From: Pedobacter sp. SL55
Lineage (GTDB): Bacteria; Bacteroidota; Bacteroidia; Sphingobacteriales; Sphingobacteriaceae
Length of the DNA: 64,000 bases
Assembly: GCF_026625705.1 (NCBI RefSeq)
Contig: NZ_CP113059.1
Coordinates: forward strand, 992,001-1,056,000
Direction of reading: 5' to 3'
The number at the start of each line of letters is the position of its first letter. Position 1 is the stretch's first letter. The position numbers and the translations under genes are program-made. This document shows positions 404-21,765 of the stretch, piece after piece. Under the pieces are notes generated by a model. It ran no database searches. It was not told where the DNA came from and saw nothing but the letters and a program-made list of their open reading frames with translations.

Positions 404-1654
404 TTATTTTTTACTCGACATTGCTTCTATCATTTTAATTGTTTTGGCTTTATCGGCAGCAAATTTTTCTTGTTTAATGGCTAACTCTTGTAAAATAGCT
501 AATTCTGTTTTAGCTTGCAATAAAGCAGCCATACTGTTAGGAATTTTCTCTAACAATTTAATTCTTGTTACTAGATTTTTAGAGAAACGATCCATGCTAA
601 AGGTAGTGTTGTTTTTGAAAGAAAGTATGGTCCAAGCAACCGCACTTTTAAGTACTTGCACCTCTTTGCAATCATTTTCTAAAACTGGGTTAATCCATCT
701 ATCTAACACACCAGAAGATATGTTTTGATAACGATCTTCTGTTAAAAGCAAATTAATGGTTGAAGCATAAACGCTCCACTTTTTTTGATACGCTAATGCA
801 CTAACTTTTAAATCATCGGCTAGAAAATGTCTTTTTTCAAACTGCTGGTTTTCCATTAACGTTATTAATTTTTGAAAAGACTTTTCATCGAACTCTTTCC
901 CATTTTTAACTTGCTCTAGTAACCATTTTGCATATTTATTGTAGATATTTATGGCAAATACATCCGTTCGAGTTTTTTTAAACTTTGCCTCAAAAGCACT
1001 TCTATGTTCAAAAAAATATTGCCCTGCAGTAGAAAATGGATCTGGTTGGTTTTTAGTCATCAGCTCAAAAACATCAGCATCTAGATATTGTTCTTTAGGG
1101 ATAAGCAACAAGTATTTTTCCGTTACCTCCCTAGCTCTTACATCTGCTGTTTTTACTAAAGATTGAAGAAATGCTTTCACATACTCAACGTTGTTTGGAT
1201 CTTTTTGATAACGAACCTCTAATTCTGTTAAGGAGCTGCCGCCATTGAATGCTTTTTCGGCTTCGGCCAATAAAGCGTTTGCCTCCATAAATCCTAACGC
1301 TCTATGTACTACCTCGCCCTCTGCATTTACCCATAATAAGGTTGGAAAAGCACCTACATGAAATTTCTTTTGCAAAGCAATTCCTTCTCCTTTTTCCATA
1401 TCAACTTTGTAACTGATAAAGTTCTTATTGAACAAATCGCCAACTGTTTTTAAAGGAAATATTTCTGCTGATAAGCGCTTGCAAGGCCCGCACCACGAAG
1501 TGTAACAGTCTATGAAGATGAGCTTATTTTCTTTTTTTGCCTTGGCAGTGATTTCTTTCCAAGTACCATTTTCAAAATTTATCCCCTCTGCCGTAGCCGC
1601 CAAAGCAGCTACGGAATTTAAAATGAGGAGCATTACTAACCTAAAATTTTTCAT
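404..1654 (-). CDS. Secreted thioredoxin-fold protein
   Basis: This 416-residue protein has a cleavable signal peptide (residues 1-20) and then a thioredoxin domain at about 25-130 with the redox motif WCGPCK (cysteines 55 and 58) and the cis-proline segment GAFPTLLW. The remaining 280 residues are helical and match nothing I recognise. The family reduces or isomerises disulfides in the periplasm; substrates are unknown. Its start overlaps the stop of the upstream TlpA-like gene by 4 bp (ATGA), so the two are translationally coupled. It belongs to a run of three thioredoxin-fold genes downstream of a SusC/SusD pair, which suggests redox support for that locus. Confidence 0.85.
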   Translation of the reverse strand: MKNFRLVMLLILNSVAALAATAEGINFENGTWKEITAKAKKENKLIFIDCYTSWCGPCKRLSAEIFPLKTVGDLFNKNFISYKVDMEKGEGIALQKKFHVGAFPTLLWVNAEGEVVHRALGFMEANALLAEAEKAFNGGSSLTELEVRYQKDPNNVEYVKAFLQSLVKTADVRAREVTEKYLLLIPKEQYLDADVFELMTKNQPDPFSTAGQYFFEHRSAFEAKFKKTRTDVFAINIYNKYAKWLLEQVKNGKEFDEKSFQKLITLMENQQFEKRHFLADDLKVSALAYQKKWSVYASTINLLLTEDRYQNISSGVLDRWINPVLENDCKEVQVLKSAVAWTILSFKNNTTFSMDRFSKNLVTRIKLLEKIPNSMAALLQAKTELAILQELAIKQEKFAADKAKTIKMIEAMSSKK

Positions 1655-2772
1655 GACTTTTTATCGAAAATTTTCGCCAACTCGATATGCAAAGCATCGC
1701 CCATTAAATTTTTGGCTACTACTTTTCCGTCTGGCCCTACCAATATATTTTGTGGAATAGCATTAATTCCATAAATCTTACCTGCTTCATTCGGCATTTT
1801 AAGGTCCGAAACCTGTTTCCAAGGTAATTGATCTACCTCTACTGCTTGCAGCCAGGCTGTTTTAAATGCCTCGATGTCTAAAGAAACGCCTAAAACCTCA
1901 AATCCCTTAGGATGATATTTGTTATACGCTTTTAAAAGGTTTGGATTTTCGGCTCTGCAAGGTTTGCACCAAGAGGCCCAAAAATCTACCAGAACGTATT
2001 TCCCTGCATAATCAGAAAGTTTTATCTGCTTTCCGTTAGCATCTGGCTGGCTAAAATCAATTGCTTTTTTGCCAATATCTGTTTTACTAAGCAAGGCCAA
2101 ATAATCTGCCATATTTTTACCGGCATTCGTTGCTCTTATTTGTGGCGTAAGCTTATTGAACAAAGGTACTGTGGCACGATAGTCTACCACAAGGCCTACA
2201 TATTTATTTAGTGCCTCTATCCCCAAAAAATTATCTAAATTTTCTTGATAGGCTTGATAGTAAACCTTGGTCATTTCGGCTTCTAAACTTTCTTTGGCCT
2301 TGGCAATTTGTGCATCCAAAAACTCATCGCTAGGCTTACCATCAGTCAATGCTTTCAGCTTGCTTTCAAAAATCTTTTTCCTGCGCTCAATTGGTTTTAG
2401 CGCAGCCTTTAACTGGTCATATCGTTCATTAAGTAACGAAGCTTTCATTTTTGCATGGGCCAGAGAGTCGCTGGGACTTTCTAATAGATTGTTGCCTTTT
2501 TCTACGTATATCCAAACCGACTCGGATTTTCTCTTTCCATCTACTTTTCTGTTGACGGTAAGGAAGCCAAGTATAGGATCTTGTAGTGTACCTTTAAATT
2601 CAAAAATACTATCCTTAAGCTCCACAACTTGCGAGGGCGTTTCTGGATAGGAAAGTTGAGCGGTGGTAAGATTGTTATTTTTGGCAAGCTTTACCTTTAA
2701 GGTATAAGTATTGCTCTGCGCCATAGCTAAAGTTGGTAACCAAAGCATGACAGCGATAAGTAGTTTTTTCAT
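1651..2772 (-). CDS. TlpA-family disulfide reductase with DUF4369-like N-terminus
   Basis: The 373 residues comprise a signal peptide (MKKLLIAVMLWLPTLAMAQ), an N-terminal beta-rich domain of the DUF4369 type (about 22-120), a helical linker, and a C-terminal AhpC/TSA-TlpA thioredoxin domain from about 235. The active site is WCKPC (cysteines 269 and 272), and the GINAIPQN segment holds the cis-proline. Such proteins are periplasmic thiol reductases. It is a close tandem paralogue of the gene at 3271-4398, nearly identical over the last 100 residues, but with lysine instead of glycine between the cysteines, a change expected to alter redox potential. It is coupled to the downstream thioredoxin-fold gene. 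Confidence 0.9.
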   Translation of the reverse strand: MKKLLIAVMLWLPTLAMAQSNTYTLKVKLAKNNNLTTAQLSYPETPSQVVELKDSIFEFKGTLQDPILGFLTVNRKVDGKRKSESVWIYVEKGNNLLESPSDSLAHAKMKASLLNERYDQLKAALKPIERRKKIFESKLKALTDGKPSDEFLDAQIAKAKESLEAEMTKVYYQAYQENLDNFLGIEALNKYVGLVVDYRATVPLFNKLTPQIRATNAGKNMADYLALLSKTDIGKKAIDFSQPDANGKQIKLSDYAGKYVLVDFWASWCKPCRAENPNLLKAYNKYHPKGFEVLGVSLDIEAFKTAWLQAVEVDQLPWKQVSDLKMPNEAGKIYGINAIPQNILVGPDGKVVAKNLMGDALHIELAKIFDKKS

Positions 2773-3270
2773 TTTGTGTATTTGTTAACCTAAGTTTGAT
2801 TTTTAACCTATTGATAATTAGACTTTAAAACTGATGCTGAACTAAATTCAGCATGACGAACCGCCGATCTTTCGTCACCCTGAATTTATTTCAGGGTCAG
2901 CTAACCCGATAGTTTTATATAGTACCGTAAAATAAGCAAATAATAATCGAGCTCAGGTTGTTAATAAATGGTTTTGCTAGCAAATGATAGCCACAACCTC
3001 AATTTCATTAAGTGAAGGATTTTGCTTTGTTAGGCTGAGCTTGCCGATAAATGGGAACAAGTTATCGAAGAATATTTCTCTAACTAAAAATTAAACCAAT
3101 GTATGTCTACTAGCTCAAAATGACGCCTCGGTTTTGTTTTCTTCTTAACTTACTTGCATTGACCGCAACCTAGTAATTGTGGTAAAAAACTCCACTAATT
3201 AGGCTCACTTTACCGCAGTTACCAAAGCACCTGCGGTTTTAAAAAGTGACGCATTACTAACCTGGTTCTT
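2773..3270. repeat. Intergenic spacer with two palindromic stem-loops
   Basis: This 498-bp gap between the two TlpA paralogues has no convincing gene. It contains two adjacent perfect hairpins, arms 2834-2841/2847-2854 (ATGCTGAA with a 5-nt loop) and 2877-2884/2890-2897 (ACCCTGAA with a 5-nt loop), each next to a GTCA/TGAC-like flank. They resemble the dispersed palindromic repeats common between genes in this group and could form transcript ends. The rest (2900-3270) shows nothing I can name. Confidence 0.55.
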
Positions 3271-4398
3271 TTATGATTTTTTATCGAAAATTTCGGCCAA
3301 CTTGGAGTGAAGTCCATCGCCCATTAAGTTTTTGGCAACAACTTTTCCATCGGGCCCTACCAATACATTTTGAGGGATAGCATTAATGCCATAAATCTTA
3401 CCTGCTTCATTTGGCAACTTAAGGTCCGAAACCTGTTTCCAAGGCAATTGATCTACCTCTACGGCCTTTATCCATGCTTGTCTAAAAGCTTCAATATCTA
3501 AAGACACGCCTAATATTTCTAATCCTTTTGAATGATAATTGTTATAAGCTTTTAATACATTCGGATTTTCTGCTCTACAAGGGCCGCACCACGATGCCCA
3601 AAAATCTACCAATACATATTTACCTTTATAATCAGAAAGTTTAACTGGTTTTCCTGCAATGTCTAACTGTGTAAAATCTGGCGCAATGGTTCCAATATCT
3701 GTTTTTTTCAAGTTTGCCATCTGCTCTGCCATTTCTTTTCCTGCTTTGGTAGCTTTAACTCGAGCCGAAAGCTTATCAAACAATGGTGCAGTAGTTCTAT
3801 AGTCGAATATTTTACCTACATACTTGTTCAAAGCCTCAATACTTAAATAGCTATCTGGATTTTTCTTATAAAACTCGTAATAAACGACTGCTATTTGTTC
3901 ATCTATGGCTTCTTTGCCCTTATCTATCTCGGCTATTATTGCTTCATTTTTACGGTCAGCATCGGGCATCTTACGAAGTTTCGCATCCAATTTCTTTTTA
4001 TTTTCCTCTAGTGGTTTCAATGCAGCTTCCAGTTTTTTAAAATCTAGGTTAAGCTTCGAGCCAGTTATTTTGGCATCAGCAAGCAGGTCTGTAGCACTCT
4101 CTAACAAAATGGTTCCAGGCTCTAGGTAAATCCAGTAAATTTCCGTTTTTCTTTTCCCTTGTATTTTTCGGTCTACACTAATAGAAGCCCTAAGTGGATC
4201 TTCTATTTTTCCGGCAAATTCGAAGCTACCGTTTTTAATTTCTACTTCCTCGCTGTGATAAGCTGGGTTTAAGTACACTAAACTAGCACTAAGCAGCTCT
4301 TCTTTTCCTGCCAATTTAGCTTTTATCAAAAAAGTATTGTTTTGTGCCAAAGCCAAAGCAGGCATTAGCAAAGCGATATATAAAATCAGTTTTTTCAT
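3271..4398 (-). CDS. TlpA-family disulfide reductase (tandem paralogue)
   Basis: I chose the ATG at 4398 because it directly begins a signal peptide (MKKLILYIALLMPALALAQ); the frame stays open 51 bp further upstream without a better start. The layout matches the neighbour at 1651-2772: DUF4369-like domain, charged helical linker, then a TlpA thioredoxin domain with WCGPC (cysteines 271 and 274) and the same C-terminal GDG/GDA-LH...LA.IFDKKS ending. It is a periplasmic thiol:disulfide oxidoreductase. It follows the SusD gene by 64 bp on the same strand and probably belongs to its transcript. Confidence 0.9.
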   Translation of the reverse strand: MKKLILYIALLMPALALAQNNTFLIKAKLAGKEELLSASLVYLNPAYHSEEVEIKNGSFEFAGKIEDPLRASISVDRKIQGKRKTEIYWIYLEPGTILLESATDLLADAKITGSKLNLDFKKLEAALKPLEENKKKLDAKLRKMPDADRKNEAIIAEIDKGKEAIDEQIAVVYYEFYKKNPDSYLSIEALNKYVGKIFDYRTTAPLFDKLSARVKATKAGKEMAEQMANLKKTDIGTIAPDFTQLDIAGKPVKLSDYKGKYVLVDFWASWCGPCRAENPNVLKAYNNYHSKGLEILGVSLDIEAFRQAWIKAVEVDQLPWKQVSDLKLPNEAGKIYGINAIPQNVLVGPDGKVVAKNLMGDGLHSKLAEIFDKKS

Positions 4399-13074: not shown

Positions 13075-13461
13075 ATTGTATCGTTTTAGTTTGCAAAATT
13101 TATATCGGTCCGCCCCAACTTCTCATACAACTACATGTTGTACAAACCTACTGATTTAATTGCGGTACCGCCAACTATAATTTGACATCAAAAGATATAA
13201 CTGTATAATAGGGTAAACGCCTCGATGAATAAAATGAGTAGGGAGGATCTCTAAGTAATTTTCGAGGACACAGTCAGCCAGTCGCGGTAGTTTGAAAGGC
13301 AAAGCCCCCAATGATTTTGATACTCATTGAGGGCTTCTATTCCCGCAGCCATACGGGCGTATTTTACTATGTAAATAACTATCTGGGTGCAAAGATAGTC
13401 AACATTATGGAATGGCAACTAAAAACCCTTGAGTTGGTACACTTCTAAAACTTTTCTTTAT
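13075..13461. other. Intergenic region with hairpin and possible tiny gene
   Basis: Between the secreted-protein gene and the Fic repeat array there is a strong hairpin at 13302-13314/13324-13336 (AAGCCC-CAATGA pairing with TCATTGAGGGCTT). A - strand promoter-like TATCTTTG lies at 13390-13397 and a 10-bp palindrome GCGGTACCGC at 13162-13171. A 33-codon frame runs on the - strand from an ATG at 13352 to a TAG at 13251 (MAAGIEALNEYQNHWG...) and lies 38 bp after that promoter-like box. The hairpin falls inside this frame, so it may be a leader or a short gene; I cannot decide. Confidence 0.35.
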
Positions 13462-13642
13462 CCAGAAAAGTTTGTAAGAAATGACTGCTTTAGCCAGAAA
13501 AATTTGTAAATTGCAATACTTAGCGATTGCTTAGCCAGAAAAATTTGCATTTCTATCCAGAAAAATTTGTGAATTTACCTACTTTTAGCCAGAAAAATTT
13601 GTGTAAAAAAGGTTGATAGAGCTTTTTAACCAGAAAAATTTG
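13462..13642 (+). promoter_or_regulatory. Array of six phased CCAGAAAAATTTG repeats upstream of the Fic gene
   Basis: Six direct copies of a 13-bp motif start at 13462 (one mismatch), 13494, 13535, 13557, 13589 and 13630. Three copies share the longer form TTAGCCAGAAAAATTTG. Start-to-start spacings are 32, 41, 22, 32 and 41 bp, close to 3, 4, 2, 3 and 4 helical turns; the total of 168 bp equals 16 turns of 10.5 bp. The last copy ends 4 bp before the ATG at 13647, where a ribosome site would lie. The arrangement suggests cooperative binding of a regulator on one DNA face, most simply the AbiEi-like N-terminus of the Fic protein itself. Confidence 0.7.
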
Positions 13643-13646
13643 CAAT

Positions 13647-15128
13647 ATGGACAAGAACATCCCTCTTCATCTACAGGAAATTATTTTCGCATCAAGTGAG
13701 CCTGAGACCAGTAGAGCTATATCCGCACTGGTAAGGGAAGGTAAGCTAAAATTACTGGTTCCCAAAGTCTACACCTCCAACCTACATGAGGATGAGACTA
13801 CTATTCTTAAAAGGCATCTGCTAAAGATACTCGGACATCTTTACAAAGGAGCTATACTCAGCCATCGGTCAGCGTTTGAATATCAGCCTACTTCATCGGG
13901 TGATATTTTCATTACGCATGGTTATGATAAGAAGGTTAAAATGCATGAGGTTACACTGAATTTTCTTAGGGGACCAGGCCCCTTAGAGGGTGATCTTACC
14001 TTTATGGGAGATTTGCATGTTTCTCAAAAAGCTAGGGCCTTTCTGGAATGCCTACAACCATCGAGAAGACCGGGAGCTACCTCGAAAACACTGACTTTAC
14101 CTGAAATTGAATTGAAACTTGATCAGATTATACGGGTAAATGGCGAAGAAGGTATCAATGCGCTTCGTGATAAGGCGAAAGACATTGCCCCCCAGCTGGG
14201 TATGGAAAAAGAATATGAACGATTGGACAAAATGATCGGTGCGCTATTGAGTACCAAGCCATCCAACATCCTAACTTCACCTATTGCGCAGGCCAGGGCA
14301 TTTGGTTCGCCTTACGATCCTGCACGTATAGACCTTTTCCAACATCTTTTTGTAACGTTACAGCAGAATGAATATCCATTGCGTCCAGATCCCAATAAAA
14401 CTGTTGAAGCCTACCGCAATTTCGCTTTCTTCGAAGCTTACTTCTCCAATTTCATCGAAGGAACCAAGTTCAAAGTAGAGGAAGCGATCAAGATTATAGA
14501 AACCGGAAAGCCTTTACCTACAAGGTTCGAAGACGGGCACGATGTCTTGGGTACGTACCAAATCGTAAGCAACCGACAGGAAATGCAGATTGCACCAGCG
14601 ACATCTTCAGAGCTGATCGAAATTATGAAATATCGGCACAAGATCCTGATGAGTGCCAGACCGGAGAAAACCCCTGGCGAGTTTAAGGATGTCAATAACA
14701 GAGCAGGCGCAACCGATTTTGTCGATTTCAATCTGGTAAAGGGAACATTGGAAAAAGGGTTTGATTACTATAACGCCCTTCAGCATCCATTTACCAAGGC
14801 CGCGTTCATGATGTTCATGATCAGCGAGGTCCACCCCTTCCTAGATGGCAACGGTAGAATTGCCCGGGTTATGATGAATGCAGAAATGACCGCCGCAGGA
14901 CAGAGTAAGATTATTGTTCCAAGCGTTTATCGCGAAGATTACCTGGGCGGACTACGAGCGCTCACCCGCAGGAACGAGCCAGAAAAATACATCAGGATGC
15001 TATTAAGGGCATGGAAGTTCAGCGAGACTATTGCTGGCGCCAATATGGATCAGATGCAAGTGATCCTGGATCAGAGCAATGCATTCGAAGAGGGGGAAGA
15101 CTACATACTAAAGATCGTAGGAGAATAA
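13647..15128 (+). CDS. Fic-domain protein fused to an AbiEi-like DNA-binding N-terminus
   Basis: The 493 residues fall into a winged-helix/AbiEi-like N-terminal part (about 1-200: SRAISALVREGKLKLLVPKVY, AILSHRSAFEY) and a Fic AMP-transferase part (about 230-480). The Fic signature HPFLDGNGRIAR is complete at 396-407. The inhibitory motif S/T-xxx-E-G/N appears as SNFIEG at 267-272, before the Fic motif, which is the class II arrangement. Fic enzymes transfer AMP or other groups to target proteins; an AbiEi-type regulator controls toxin operons. The fusion, with the phased repeats directly upstream, suggests an autoregulated self-inhibited effector carried as island cargo. The target is unknown. 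Confidence 0.85.
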   Translation: MDKNIPLHLQEIIFASSEPETSRAISALVREGKLKLLVPKVYTSNLHEDETTILKRHLLKILGHLYKGAILSHRSAFEYQPTSSGDIFITHGYDKKVKMHEVTLNFLRGPGPLEGDLTFMGDLHVSQKARAFLECLQPSRRPGATSKTLTLPEIELKLDQIIRVNGEEGINALRDKAKDIAPQLGMEKEYERLDKMIGALLSTKPSNILTSPIAQARAFGSPYDPARIDLFQHLFVTLQQNEYPLRPDPNKTVEAYRNFAFFEAYFSNFIEGTKFKVEEAIKIIETGKPLPTRFEDGHDVLGTYQIVSNRQEMQIAPATSSELIEIMKYRHKILMSARPEKTPGEFKDVNNRAGATDFVDFNLVKGTLEKGFDYYNALQHPFTKAAFMMFMISEVHPFLDGNGRIARVMMNAEMTAAGQSKIIVPSVYREDYLGGLRALTRRNEPEKYIRMLLRAWKFSETIAGANMDQMQVILDQSNAFEEGEDYILKIVGE

Positions 15129-15372: not shown

Positions 15373-15568
15373 AAAGTGGCCCCCGTTCGCCATATGAAAA
15401 TGGCCCCCTCTGCCAGAGCAAAGTGATCCCCTTCCGCCAAACGAAAGTGATCCCCCTTCGCCAGGCCAAGTTGACCCCCTGAAAAGACCAAAAAGCACCA
15501 GTACTGATCGGTTTCGTCAGACGGGGTTTTTGTTTATGTTTTTCTACGAACAAAAACCCTCGATTACG

Positions 15569-17113
15569 ATGTCCAACACACCGATCAAAATGAATAAACT
15601 ACGACAGATTATCCGTCTTTACTGCCAGGGAACCGGCACAAAGACCATCAACGGTATGGTAGGCACTTCACGTACCACCATCAAAAAGTATTTGCGCATA
15701 TGGCATGAACTGGGTATCACCCACGAAGAATTCAATTCCAGGAGCGATAATGAACTTGCTGTTCTTTTTAATACAAAAACTGCCAAAACGATCAATAGTC
15801 CCCGTATGCAGGAATTGGAACTTCTATTGCCAGAGTACTGTAAAAGGCTAAAAAAGAAAGGTGTAACCCGTGAGTCTCTTCATCTGGAATACATCCTTAA
15901 ACACCCCCAGGGCTACGGACGGTCCCGTTTCAACAATGCTATCCATACCTATCTCCAGCTTTCCAGGCCAGTCATGCACATTGACCATAAAGCCGGCGAT
16001 AAGATCTATATCGACTTTGCAGGAAGCAAACTGCAACTTCATCCAGCCTCAGGTCCGGAGCGTGATGCGGAGGTATTTGTAGCGATCTTGGGCTGCAGCC
16101 AGCTTACGTATGTGGAGGCGGTAGAAAGCCAGCGCAAAGAAGACCTGATCAAGGCCTGTGAGAACGCGTTGCACTATTTTGGGGGTGTGCTGGGGGCCAT
16201 TGTCCCCGACAATCTGCGTTCTGCGGTAACCAGGGGGAGTAAGTACGAAGCCGTGCTCAATGATGAGTTTGCGGCATTTGCCGAGCATTATGCCGTTACC
16301 GTGGTTCCTGCCAGGGTCTATAAGCCCCGTGACAAGTCTTTAGTGGAAGGGGCCGTTAAACTGATCTACAGAAGCATCTACCAACGTCTGGAAGGCCGCA
16401 AGTTCAGTGACCTGGAATCACTTAACGCCGCCATAAGGTCCGCACTGGAGATCCACAACAACAAACCTTTTTCAGGGCGGAGCTATTCACGCAGGGAACA
16501 GTTCGAAGAGGTTGAACGCGAAGCGTTGGGACCGCTCAACCCGATCCGTTACGAAGTGCACAAACAGGTCATGGTAACGGTGATGAAGAACGGTTATGTG
16601 CGTTTAGGCGAAGATATCCACTATTATAGCGTGCCCTACACCTATATCGGCAAGAAAGTAAAAGTGCTTTATACCTCTACCATGGTCCAGATCTATTACC
16701 ACTACACGCAGGTTGCTGCCCATAAACGCACCCGGGCCAAATATCATTACACCACCGGTAAAGAGCACCTGGCCTCACAGCACCGCTTTTTGACCGAATG
16801 GACACCTGAAAAGTTTATGCAGGAAGCCGAGCAGATCCATGAGGATGTGGCCAGATACATCTCTCAGGTCCTGGAACGTAAAGCCTATCCCGAGCAGGCC
16901 TACAAATCATGTTCCGGTATACTGAGCTTCACCAGGCGTGTCGGCCCGGAGCGTCTGGCCAATGCCTGCCGCTGGGCCGATAATCTTGGCCAGTACAACT
17001 ATCCGATCATTGAGGAGATCCTGAGAAAACGGCTGGACCAGCTTACCCCTGAGGATGAGCCGGCCAGCATTCCGGCCCATAACAACATCAGGGGCAAAGA
17101 ATATTATCAGTAA
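15569..17113 (+). CDS. istA: IS21 transposase IstA
   Basis: I start at the ATG of MSNTPIKMNKLRQI (15569), although the frame is open 39 bp earlier. The N-terminal helix-turn-helix (GMVGTSRTTIKKYLRIW) is followed by the DDE core: Asp in IYIDFAG, Asp in IVPDNLRSAV, and Glu in KSLVEGAVKLIYRSIYQ. The 514-residue length fits the family. IstA binds the IS ends and performs strand transfer together with the ATPase encoded 23 bp downstream. The gene looks intact. Confidence 0.93.
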   Translation: MSNTPIKMNKLRQIIRLYCQGTGTKTINGMVGTSRTTIKKYLRIWHELGITHEEFNSRSDNELAVLFNTKTAKTINSPRMQELELLLPEYCKRLKKKGVTRESLHLEYILKHPQGYGRSRFNNAIHTYLQLSRPVMHIDHKAGDKIYIDFAGSKLQLHPASGPERDAEVFVAILGCSQLTYVEAVESQRKEDLIKACENALHYFGGVLGAIVPDNLRSAVTRGSKYEAVLNDEFAAFAEHYAVTVVPARVYKPRDKSLVEGAVKLIYRSIYQRLEGRKFSDLESLNAAIRSALEIHNNKPFSGRSYSRREQFEEVEREALGPLNPIRYEVHKQVMVTVMKNGYVRLGEDIHYYSVPYTYIGKKVKVLYTSTMVQIYYHYTQVAAHKRTRAKYHYTTGKEHLASQHRFLTEWTPEKFMQEAEQIHEDVARYISQVLERKAYPEQAYKSCSGILSFTRRVGPERLANACRWADNLGQYNYPIIEEILRKRLDQLTPEDEPASIPAHNNIRGKEYYQ

Positions 17114-17136
17114 TACATTAACAATCCATAACAAAC

Positions 17137-17883
17137 ATGAATAACGAAACATTAGAGAAGATGCGTCAACTTCGCCTTTATGGCATGTACGATGCTTTTA
17201 AAACCAATCTGGAGACTTCAGTGAAAGAATCCCTTACCGCAGACCAATTCATTGCATTGCTGGTGGCCAGCGAGTGGGATGATCGGCGGAACCGGTCTGT
17301 ACAAAGGGCGATCAGTGGGGCAAGTTTTCGCTACAATGCTTCTTTGGAACAGATCGACTACTCATTTGAGCGTGGTCTGGATAAGAATCAGGTCCACAGG
17401 CTTGCCGGACTCGAGTTTATAAAAGAGCACAAGGATGTGTTCATTACCGGTTCCACTGGAACCGGCAAAAGTTATCTGGCAACCGCTCTGGGCTACCATG
17501 CCTGCCAGAACGGCTACAAAGTGATGTATGTGAATACAGCTAAGCTGATGGGCCAGCTAAAGCTGGCTAAGGCCAAAGGGACCATGCTGGCAGAACTGAA
17601 GCGTATAGAGCGCATGGACATGCTCATATTGGATGACTTCGGCCTCCAGCCATTCGATCCCCAGTCCAGGCTTGCCCTGCTTGATATCATCGAGGACAGG
17701 CACCAGAAGCGTTCTACGGTCATTACTTCGCAGATCCCGGTAAAGGAATGGTACGACATCACTGGTGAAAAGACCGTGGCTGACGCAGTGCTTGACCGCA
17801 TTGTACACCACTCAGTAAGGGTCGAATTGTTTGGAGAATCACTAAGGAGAAAAAAAACTAATCCGGAAAATGTATTTTTGTAG
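17137..17883 (+). CDS. istB: IS21 helper ATPase IstB
   Basis: This 248-residue AAA+ protein has Walker A GSTGTGKSYLAT (about residue 105), Walker B MLILDDFGLQ (about 160), and the DnaC-like helper fold. IstB assembles on target DNA and selects the site for IstA. It follows istA after 23 bp, as expected for a two-gene IS21 operon. Length and motifs are complete, so the IS may be active. Confidence 0.94.
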   Translation: MNNETLEKMRQLRLYGMYDAFKTNLETSVKESLTADQFIALLVASEWDDRRNRSVQRAISGASFRYNASLEQIDYSFERGLDKNQVHRLAGLEFIKEHKDVFITGSTGTGKSYLATALGYHACQNGYKVMYVNTAKLMGQLKLAKAKGTMLAELKRIERMDMLILDDFGLQPFDPQSRLALLDIIEDRHQKRSTVITSQIPVKEWYDITGEKTVADAVLDRIVHHSVRVELFGESLRRKKTNPENVFL

Positions 17884-19113: not shown

Positions 19114-19971
19114 GCTATGAAGCCCTGTTTGTAAGGAGTGGTACTTTCTCAATAACCTTGTCCATCTGCCCCTGTACCATCTGCATGCTTTTCATCAGCC
19201 TTTCCTTGCCTACCTGGCAATATTGGTGCGTTGTCTTGATCGACCGATGGCCGAGCATCAAGGACACGTCCTCCAAGGGGAGGAAGAAGTGGTTGAGCAT
19301 CATGTGGGCAAAGGTATGCCTGGCCAGATGTGTTGTCAATGGCCGGGCAAAGCCGGCCAGCACCCCTACCGGTTTGAGATAGTCATTATATTTTTGGTTG
19401 CTGATCACAGGCAATAGACTGCCGGTCCTCAGTACCACCTCGTGTTCCCTGTAACGTTCGATGATCTCCTCTACGATGGGAAGTACCGGCACAAGCTCAG
19501 TCGCATCCGATTTCTGCCGGTTTCGCATCAGACATTTGCCCCTGCCGCCGTGGTCGATGAGGTTTTCCTGCGTCAGGTTCGCCAGTTCGATATATGCAAA
19601 GCCGGTAAAACACTGGAAAATGAACAGGTCCTTGATGATGTTCAGCTTTGGACTTTCATACCCGGCAGCGTGCAGCTGCATCACCTCTACGTATTCCAAA
19701 GGGACCACCTTCTTGCTCTTGGGATTATACTCGAAGTGCTGCACCCTGTTCTTGTCGAGCCATTCCCTTTCCACTGCATAATCCAGGAATGCCTTCAGGT
19801 GGATGACCCTGCGCTCGGTGGTGACCGGACTCAGCGGGTTCTCCTTGCGCAGGGTAAGGAAGTTGACCATTTCCCGGGCGAAGTCCTGCCTGATGTCACT
19901 TAGACCTGTATGCTTCCCCGAAATTGGTCCGATTAAAAATAGAAAAAAGACACTATTTTTAATTAACAATT

Positions 19972-20238
19972 ATGAAAACAACACAATTTACAGAGGCACA
20001 GATTGTTTCAATATTGAGACAGCATGAAAAAGGCGTTAAGGTAACAGATATTGCCAGAGCAAACGGCATATCAGAGAAGACCTTCTATCGATGGCGAAGC
20101 AAATATGGCGGGATGGAAATTAACGATCTCAAACGCCTAAAGGAACTTGAGGCAGAAAACTCCAAGCTGAAACGGATGTATACCGATCTGGCACTTTTGA
20201 ACGATGCGCTAAAGGATCTGATTGAAAAAAAGCTTTAG
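19972..20238 (+). CDS. IS3-family OrfA (DNA-binding part of the transposase)
   Basis: The 88-residue protein has the classic IS3 OrfA layout: helix-turn-helix ([20 protein letters not shown], then [14 protein letters not shown]) and a leucine-zipper-like helix ([20 protein letters not shown]). A slippery heptamer A-AAA-AAG at 20226-20232, close to the stop, allows -1 frameshifting into OrfB. The gene appears intact. Confidence 0.92.
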
Positions 20239-21050
20239 CGCCTTGCGATAAAAAAGAAGCTGTTACTTTTCTGCTTGTCGAACATCAGATCAGTAAGCGC
20301 AAGGCTTGTGATAGCATTAAAATCTCAAGAAGCAGCTTCAGTTACTTGGCCCGCATAAAGCAGGATGACAAGTACATTGAACTATTAAATGGTTTGACAG
20401 AAAAGCACGTAAGCATAGGTTTTTGGCAATGCTACCATCGGATAAGAAAGTCAGGGGAAATGATCAACCATAAAAAACTCTACAGGATTTACACCGCACT
20501 AAAACTGAACATAAGAAGAAGGGCTAAAAAAAGATTGCCAGCAAGGGTAAAACAGGCTTTGTTCCAGCCCGGCAAAATCAACGAGGTCTGGAGCATAGAT
20601 TTTATGAGTGACAGCTTATGGGATGGCAGAAAAATAAGGTTATTGAACGTGATTGATGATTTTAACAGGGAAGTTTTAACGATAGAAACAGACACATCGC
20701 TGCCAACATTACGGGTAATAAGGAGTTTGGAAGAAATCGCCCAGCAAAGGGGTTATCCCAAAATGATAAGGGTTGACAACGGGCCAGAATTTATTAGTGC
20801 AAAACTGGATATTTGGAGCAAGGAAAATAAGATCCAACTTGTGTTCATTCAGCCTGGTGAGCCCACGCAAAATGCTTATATCGAAAGGTTAAACGGAACT
20901 TTCAGAAGGGATATATTAAATGCCTACGTATTTAAATCAATTCAGGAAGTAAGAACAATAAGTGAAGAATGGATGAATGACTATAACTATAGTAGGCCAC
21001 ATAGAGCACTCAAAAATAAAACACCAATAGAATACAAATTATGCCAATAA
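20232..21050 (+). CDS. IS3-family OrfB (integrase-type catalytic part), made by -1 frameshift
   Basis: In the -1 frame the protein continues from the slippery site as [20 protein letters not shown], the usual start of IS3 OrfB; the first ATG-started frame begins only at 20346. The rve catalytic core is complete: Asp in VWSIDFMSD, Asp in [11 protein letters not shown], and Glu in [16 protein letters not shown]. The OrfAB fusion is the active transposase. Length and motifs are full, so the IS is potentially mobile. Confidence 0.9.
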
Positions 21051-21765
21051 ATTCTATTTTTGATTGGTACGAAATTTAGGGAAGCACACAGACCGATGTC
21101 GGAAATCCCAGTATGGTAACGCACAAAGTCCATCAGGTGGTTACGGGAGGTTTTCCATGTGGTGAACGTAGAGTTCTCCAACAGCTTGGCCTCCACCTGT
21201 AACTGAAGCTCCGCTATTTTGGCATCCATTACTTCAACTAGCGTATGCTTCGCCTCCTTCTGCTTTTTTTCTTCCAACTGGTTCCAGTCAGCACCTTTGC
21301 CGTTAAAGACATTCTTTACCATCTGCGGGCCGACATGCCCACGCTCCCAGCAGAGATTTTCAAAGACCCTGTCCAGGTCCTTCTGGACCTCCATGATCCT
21401 GAAATTGATCTCATCGGCAGCCCTGTTCCCCTCGGTACTCCTTTTGTTTTCGGTGTCCCAGAATTCGGGAGCGATTTTCTTTCCGATGGAAAGATCTACA
21501 TCCTCCCCATCGATGTTAATCTTTACGTACAGTGGCGCCATTCCCTTTTTGTCCGACTTTGCCCTGAAGAGCCAAAACATCACGGACATTTTCTGATTGC
21601 TTTTCATACTACACTTTTTAAGTTCAACAATTTGCCAAAAGTGGCCTGAAGTCCCTAAAACCGATCTTTTCGGAAAAACCATTTACCTAATTTACGGATC
21701 AAGCAAATAATCTGGGGGGATTCATTTAGATTTTTATTTTTGTTGTTCACTCTTGATTTATTTTT

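Follow-up and report, generated by a model that had tools for sequence, protein, structure and literature searches.

AbiEi and Rv2827c, which belong to the type IV AbiE systems, regulate their own expression through inverted repeats (PMC7319586). Their known operators consist of paired 23-bp inverted repeats separated by 3 bp or 13 bp. AbiEi is in these systems a separate antitoxin against a nucleotidyltransferase toxin. Here we analyzed a stretch of 64,000 nucleotides from Pedobacter sp. SL55 (contig NZ_CP113059.1, positions 992,001 to 1,056,000), called the window below, in which an AbiEi-like half is fused to a Fic domain in one gene (13647..15128, + strand; 493 aa) and the 181-bp region before this gene (13462..13642) carries a 13-bp repeat. 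In contrast to the AbiE operators, the conserved unit is three direct copies with spacings of 31/41 bp, and the region is probably a two-module autorepression operator of the AbiEi-Fic gene.

Three other described proteins resemble parts of this arrangement. CccR from Yersinia pseudotuberculosis combines an AMP-transferring toxin, an inhibitory Ser/Glu pair and a repressor of its own promoter in one chain (PMC9755527), as is proposed here for the window protein, whereas its DNA-binding helix-turn-helix is C-terminal and its dimer occupies a 46-nt site of two inverted repeats instead of three direct sites. CbFic2 from Coxiella burnetii is, like the window protein, a Fic enzyme of class II that carries a DNA-binding domain, and DNA binding alters its enzyme activity via dimerisation (PMC10628234); its winged helix is C-terminal, and the accessible text describes binding to random DNA, with neither a specific operator nor a repeat array. 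RptR, encoded in a restriction-modification island, represses its own promoter by three direct repeats across the promoter (PMC12255303), which is similar to the model proposed here, while its repeats are 9 bp long, are located between 58 and 31 bp upstream of the start codon and serve a 9-kDa repressor without an enzyme domain.

Among the titles and abstract beginnings of open-access PMC papers, no work on AbiEi-Fic fusions or 31/41 arrays was found. Autorepressed, self-inhibited Fic proteins are already known, and the surprising part is a conserved spacing with a replaced sequence. Such a combination is unusual and suggests that the protein assembly, rather than the bases, would be the conserved part of the switch. 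It provides a testable regulatory model for a family of at least 569 related loci, in which an AbiEi domain would act on direct rather than inverted sites and the opening codons of a gene would at the same time be an operator site, as well as about a hundred natural protein/site pairs for learning how winged-helix specificity changes.

Two three-copy modules upstream of the AbiEi-Fic gene

The original prediction listed six identical copies of the repeat. It turned out that CCAGAAAAATTTG is exact at 13494, 13535, 13557, 13589 and 13630, while the copy at 13462 reads CCAGAAAAGTTTG, with one mismatch (G for A at position 9). The spacings of 32, 41, 22, 32 and 41 bp between copies were correct when recounted, as was the distance of 4 bp from the last copy to the ATG at 13647. 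The copies are direct throughout and agree at 89-100% across 19 bp. The array is not a chance product at this place, since five of the seven exact 13-mers in the 4.44-Mb genome lie in it and its de novo motif score is 67.3, compared with at most 15.4 in 20 dinucleotide shuffles. With up to two mismatches allowed, 15 sites are found in the window against 6.5 expected, of which six form the array and the remaining nine are unremarkable.

The six copies do not form one unit: what is conserved among homologues is a unit of three, and the window array contains two of them, both on the + strand. In the upstream module (13462..13547), copies 1, 2 and 3 lie at 13462..13474 (the copy with the mismatch), 13494..13506 and 13535..13547; in the gene-proximal module (13557..13642), they lie at 13557..13569, 13589..13601 and 13630..13642. 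The spacing is 32 and 41 bp within each module, and second upstream modules occur at further homologue loci too. The predicted total of 16 helical turns (168 bp) is not conserved because the inter-module gap varies, being 22-56 bp in 36 of 38 gaps at loci with a second module. The phase of these gaps (Rayleigh R 0.51 at 10.5 bp, mean offset +2.4 bp) suggests helical phasing, and no stronger statement is made since the loci are related.

No inverted repeat of at least 12 bp was found in 13300-13800 and the copies are direct, which does not match the paired 23-bp inverted repeats of the AbiE operator type. Palindromic sites were also considered and rejected: dyad symmetry inside the copies is 4.6 in the clade of the window, equal to the coding control (4.6), and is slightly higher in a large sister clade (5.0) and lower in the others (4.1).

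The 31/41 geometry is conserved while the repeat sequence changes

The homologue loci came from samples of the family (match in 21 of 301 genomes, own included), the order (20 of 300, overlapping the family sample) and the class (14 of 395, own included), from GTDB contigs (best 80 of 569 relatives), from viral contigs (21 loci) and from plasmids (19 records at ≥80% coverage, of which 11 regions were read). The gene is therefore patchy in both family and class. Phage records queried with a distant member gave no match.

Nearly all of the homologues studied carry an array in front of the gene, with spacings near whole helical turns, so two of the outcomes that would have refuted the original prediction did not occur. 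A de novo motif finder that assumes no spacing gave scores above all 20 shuffles at 89 of 96 starts, and among 337 adjacent spacings in these 89 loci, 132 were 31-32 bp and 118 were 40-42 bp. When all pairs of lags from 18 to 60 were compared without any motif, the best triple was 30-32/40-42 in 64 of 107 loci and in 0 of 202 control segments. The other 43 include the window locus, whose best triple spans both modules, and 39 of them pass the fixed-geometry test, which takes spacings of 30-33 and 39-43 and a threshold of 14.7 (the 99th percentile of 515 control segments). By this test, 105 of 109 non-redundant starts are above the threshold and 94 are above all 515 controls, compared with 3 of 337 neighbouring gene starts that pass. 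In the 105 loci, the first spacing is 31 in 90, 32 in 13 and 30 in 2, and the second is 41 in 81, 42 in 13, 40 in 9 and 39 in 2. These values are best fitted by 10.3 bp per turn, which corresponds to three and four turns, instead of the 10.5 bp originally assumed.

The strong cases come from Bacteroidota and from viral contigs of unassigned host (e.g. L138, L143 and L153). Three plasmid loci belong to Bacteroidota; two of them (L158 and L159) score above every control, and L157 exceeds the threshold inside the control range. Besides, a gene piece from the same bacterial family (L052), which has only the AbiEi half, retains a 31/41 module with a score of 15.0, barely above the threshold, and a Fic piece lies 67 kb off on the same contig.

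The 31/41 spacing is kept among distant relatives while the repeat sequence varies widely. For instance, the copy is CCAGAAAAATTTG in the window, CTTGAAAAATTTG at L034, GCGTGAAAAATTTG at L045, TGGAAAATATTT in the large sister clade, GCACTTTTGTTGACA at L143, CCCGATTTATTGC at L138 and AAAAACACGACA at L163.

Location of the copies relative to the gene and its promoter

In 70 of the 105 loci, copy 3 (as a 14-nt test window) overlaps the start codon, and in 6 more it lies inside the frame. Starts like ATGGAAAATATTTTA serve as first codons and copy 3 at once in much of the sister clade. The first codons also form copy 3 in the distant members L138, L140, L143, L153 and L160, and their N-terminal residues therefore vary with the motif.

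The -7 box of Bacteroidota promoters, TAnnTTTG, covers -12 to -5 relative to the transcript start (PMC9723704). In the 62 loci of the sister clade, this box is found at -27 to -25 in 20, which accounts for 20 of the 23 exact matches in -130..0, and it directly follows copy 2; the other 42 have no exact box at this place. Given the span of the box, the sister-clade transcript would start near -14. At loci with the box, copy 2 would then occupy the promoter spacer, and neither it nor copy 1 would be transcribed. The ATTTG in the motif of the window had been noted as close to such a promoter box, with competition with RNA polymerase as a possibility; that it serves as the box is not supported, as the sister-clade box, where found, directly follows copy 2 and an exact TAnnTTTG is lacking in 13381-13660 of the window.

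Features of the AbiEi-Fic protein

The AbiEi-like half (aa 1-200, 13647..14246, +) consists of a winged helix, an AbiEi C-terminal domain and a long helix. Its predicted likeness to AbiEi was borne out as a fold in the structure model, which has a winged helix at the N-terminus and the AbiEi C-terminal domain after it, as in the AbiEi antitoxin fold; Pfam did not detect the likeness in the window protein. The helix at aa 19-30 (13701..13736, +) is presumed to be the recognition helix. Its residues 22-23 are SR in 17 of 19 loci of the window's clade. SQQI was a candidate mark of the sister-clade helix and proved wrong, since SKQI is the commonest form there at residues 22-25 (20 of 62) and SQQI occurs in 2.

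In class II Fic proteins, the inhibitory helix lies in the same chain N-terminal of the Fic core and has the pattern [S/T]xxxE[G/N]. The window protein has SNFIEG at aa 267-272 (14445..14462, +), which fits this class and predicts self-inhibition, and S267, N268, I270, E271 and G272 are invariant in 20 of 20 sequences. The active-site motif HPFLDGNGR (aa 396-404, 14832..14858, +) in the Fic domain agrees with HPFx[D/E]GN[G/K]R of the Fic (Fido) AMP transferases, so that AMP transfer is the predicted activity. The PADLOC profiles SoFic and PDC-S04 match the Fic domain. An anti-phage or toxin-antitoxin function is a resemblance only, because it derives from these profile matches and the patchy spread.

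AbiEi-like and Fic genes without the fusion

AbiEi-like genes of the same bacterial family that lack a Fic domain do not carry the 31/41 module. The fixed geometry was passed by 0 of 24 usable DUF6088 starts and 0 of 12 AbiEi_4 starts; the two sets are not independent, as 8 of the 12 AbiEi_4 starts are the same genes by coordinates. These genes lean towards inverted repeats instead: the median inverted-repeat score is 14.2 for DUF6088 and 13.5 for AbiEi_4, compared with 9.2 for 163 neighbouring starts and 11.4 for AbiEi-Fic starts. Several DUF6088 genes (L229-L245) have one inverted repeat like TTTGTCACAAA...TTTGTGACAAA immediately upstream, as in known AbiEi operators.

Two Fic-domain relatives without the AbiEi half fail the fixed geometry. 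The free-lag triple test gave an unexpected result for SoFic-like genes, which have phased inverted repeats upstream. In several of these Fic_N genes (L181-L208, same family), repeats such as TGTTCATTTT/AAAATGAACA are often 30-41 bp apart and recall the CccR operator. Fic autoregulation through phased sites may have more than one origin. On an Acetobacter plasmid (L259, locus 1260-3361), a Fic gene without the AbiEi half stands beside a divergent gene annotated as an AbiEii/AbiGii-type nucleotidyltransferase. A small gene upstream of the Acetobacter Fic relatives was considered as a split AbiEi half and rejected, as BLASTP shows no relation.

Autorepression model and alternative explanations

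We propose that the AbiEi-Fic protomers would bind the three direct sites of each module via their AbiEi half. The sites are about three and four turns apart and thus would all lie on one face of the DNA, an arrangement that calls for protomers in one orientation. The contact between protomers would be made by their AbiEi C-terminal or Fic domains and would fix the 31/41 geometry, while the recognized sequence would drift along with the DNA-binding half. Protein on the sites would cover the promoter (copies 1 and 2) as well as the beginning of the frame (copy 3) and in this way keep its own gene off until dilution, degradation or release removes it. One chain would then serve as effector (Fic AMP transfer), self-inhibitor (SNFIEG) and repressor. 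The model draws on the repeats, their conserved geometry and sequence turnover, the intact Fic motifs and the finding of no recurrent partner gene, together with the promoter position in part of the sister clade and the AbiEi fold in the structure model. The autoregulation of the original prediction is strongly favoured by an array at nearly all homologues with near whole-turn spacing, while its six-site layout and 16-turn sum are corrected and its promoter box is not supported.

Several results weigh against this model. Four of the 109 starts (L046, L130, L161 and L165) fail the fixed geometry, 11 of the 105 passing starts score within the control range, and SoFic-like genes pass in 4 of 24 cases with scores of 15.7 to 19.7. 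The spread past Bacteroidota, apart from viral contigs, rests on few strong cases, because only two of eight proteobacterial plasmid loci beat all controls, L163 (Variovorax) and L166 (Rhizobium, 30/40); L160, L162, L164 and L167 pass inside the control range, and L161 (Novosphingobium) and L165 (Alteromonas) fail. The window's clade has no TAnnTTTG at the sister-clade place that would mark its promoter. Co-variation between motif (copies 1 and 2) and protein is mixed. In 104 loci, motif distance correlates best with the AbiEi C-terminal domain (r 0.75), followed by the linker (0.69), the Fic domain (0.66) and, last, the winged helix (0.59). Once Fic is accounted for, the C-terminal domain keeps a partial correlation of 0.49, while the contribution of the winged helix is small (0.17; its helix 0.10, p 0.065). 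The helix stands out only in the 19 loci of the window's clade (partial 0.33, p 0.005; one of 20 partial tests), and no correlation of winged helix and motif is seen in the sister clade (partial -0.06). The partial Mantel tests thus gave no clean link of the motif to the recognition helix, and the link between protein and site is supported only in part. Binding by the own protein, repression by binding, cooperativity, enzyme activity and relief of repression are all inferred.

The weak co-variation of motif and winged helix, with own-protein binding only inferred, would also agree with a separate host regulator that reads the array and controls the Fic gene. We consider this improbable, as the array and its geometry stay with the gene, plasmids and viral contigs included, while the motif differs by lineage, and such a factor would need to change in every lineage at unchanged spacing; neither a second site array in the own genome nor a recurrent partner gene was seen. 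It is very unlikely that the repeats are phased A-tracts that set promoter strength by DNA bending, in the absence of a specific bound protein. AAAAATTT is A-tract-like and the spacings are near whole turns, yet the geometry persists in members whose A-tracts are short or missing (L138 and L140; L166 at 30/40), and in several loci the bases flanking the A-tract are faithfully repeated, which bending does not need (CCA in the window, CTT at L034, GCGT at L045, GGGT at L042).

Sites in the mRNA leader for translational self-repression would fit a copy 3 that reaches into the start codon or the frame, as it does in 76 of 105 loci. Near whole-turn spacing is a property of DNA, though, and in the 20 sister-clade loci with the box (42 of 62 being without an exact one) copies 1 and 2 would lie upstream of the transcript start, which leaves this explanation with a slim chance at best. 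A mobile element whose iterons or recombination sites lie here by coincidence is a hardly credible source of the repeats: the array is locked to the start of one gene, with copy 3 placed at the start codon or close to it both on chromosomes and on plasmids, even though the gene is patchy and its commonest neighbour family is an integrase.

An unlikely extension of the autorepression operator is that the operator itself is the antitoxin, with three Fic protomers on the 31/41 scaffold kept off (or AMP-removing) by a contact that the DNA imposes. The geometry would then be conserved as the setter of the enzyme state, beyond repression, and the additional upstream module would raise the holding capacity. 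Stripping of the module, for example by degradation or unwinding of chromosomal DNA in infection or by loss of the plasmid that carries it, would turn the freed protomers into active AMP transferases. If true, a toxin that is encoded by one gene and held by DNA would represent a new class of toxin-antitoxin logic.

Regulon and gene neighbourhood

A motif regulon in the own genome was rejected because the 46 other motif sites are all single, at least 6 kb apart, and lie mostly within coding frames (22 of 24 read). The count of 52 sites at up to one mismatch against 16 for the reversed pattern was not used as evidence, as the reversed pattern differs in dinucleotides.

No neighbour family recurs in more than 9 of 108 loci, with flanks of only 1.5 kb at part of them, and the family in these 9 loci is an integrase family (two members checked). 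In the window, no AbiEii nucleotidyltransferase, as in type IV AbiE systems, stands beside the AbiEi-like half, and the upstream gene has no Pfam family. The Fic gene is directly followed by an IS21-type transposase pair (15530-17883), with an rve integrase core and IstB (PF01695). A G+C-rich tandem repeat (15404-15480; 24-bp unit, 3.2 copies) lies between the Fic gene and this element. Besides, a tyrosine integrase is found at 19115-21682 as two minus-strand pieces, an Arm-DNA-bind_5 part (20987-21682) and a catalytic part (19115-19969). A plus-strand transposase (rve) separates the two, as though an insertion sequence had split the integrase.
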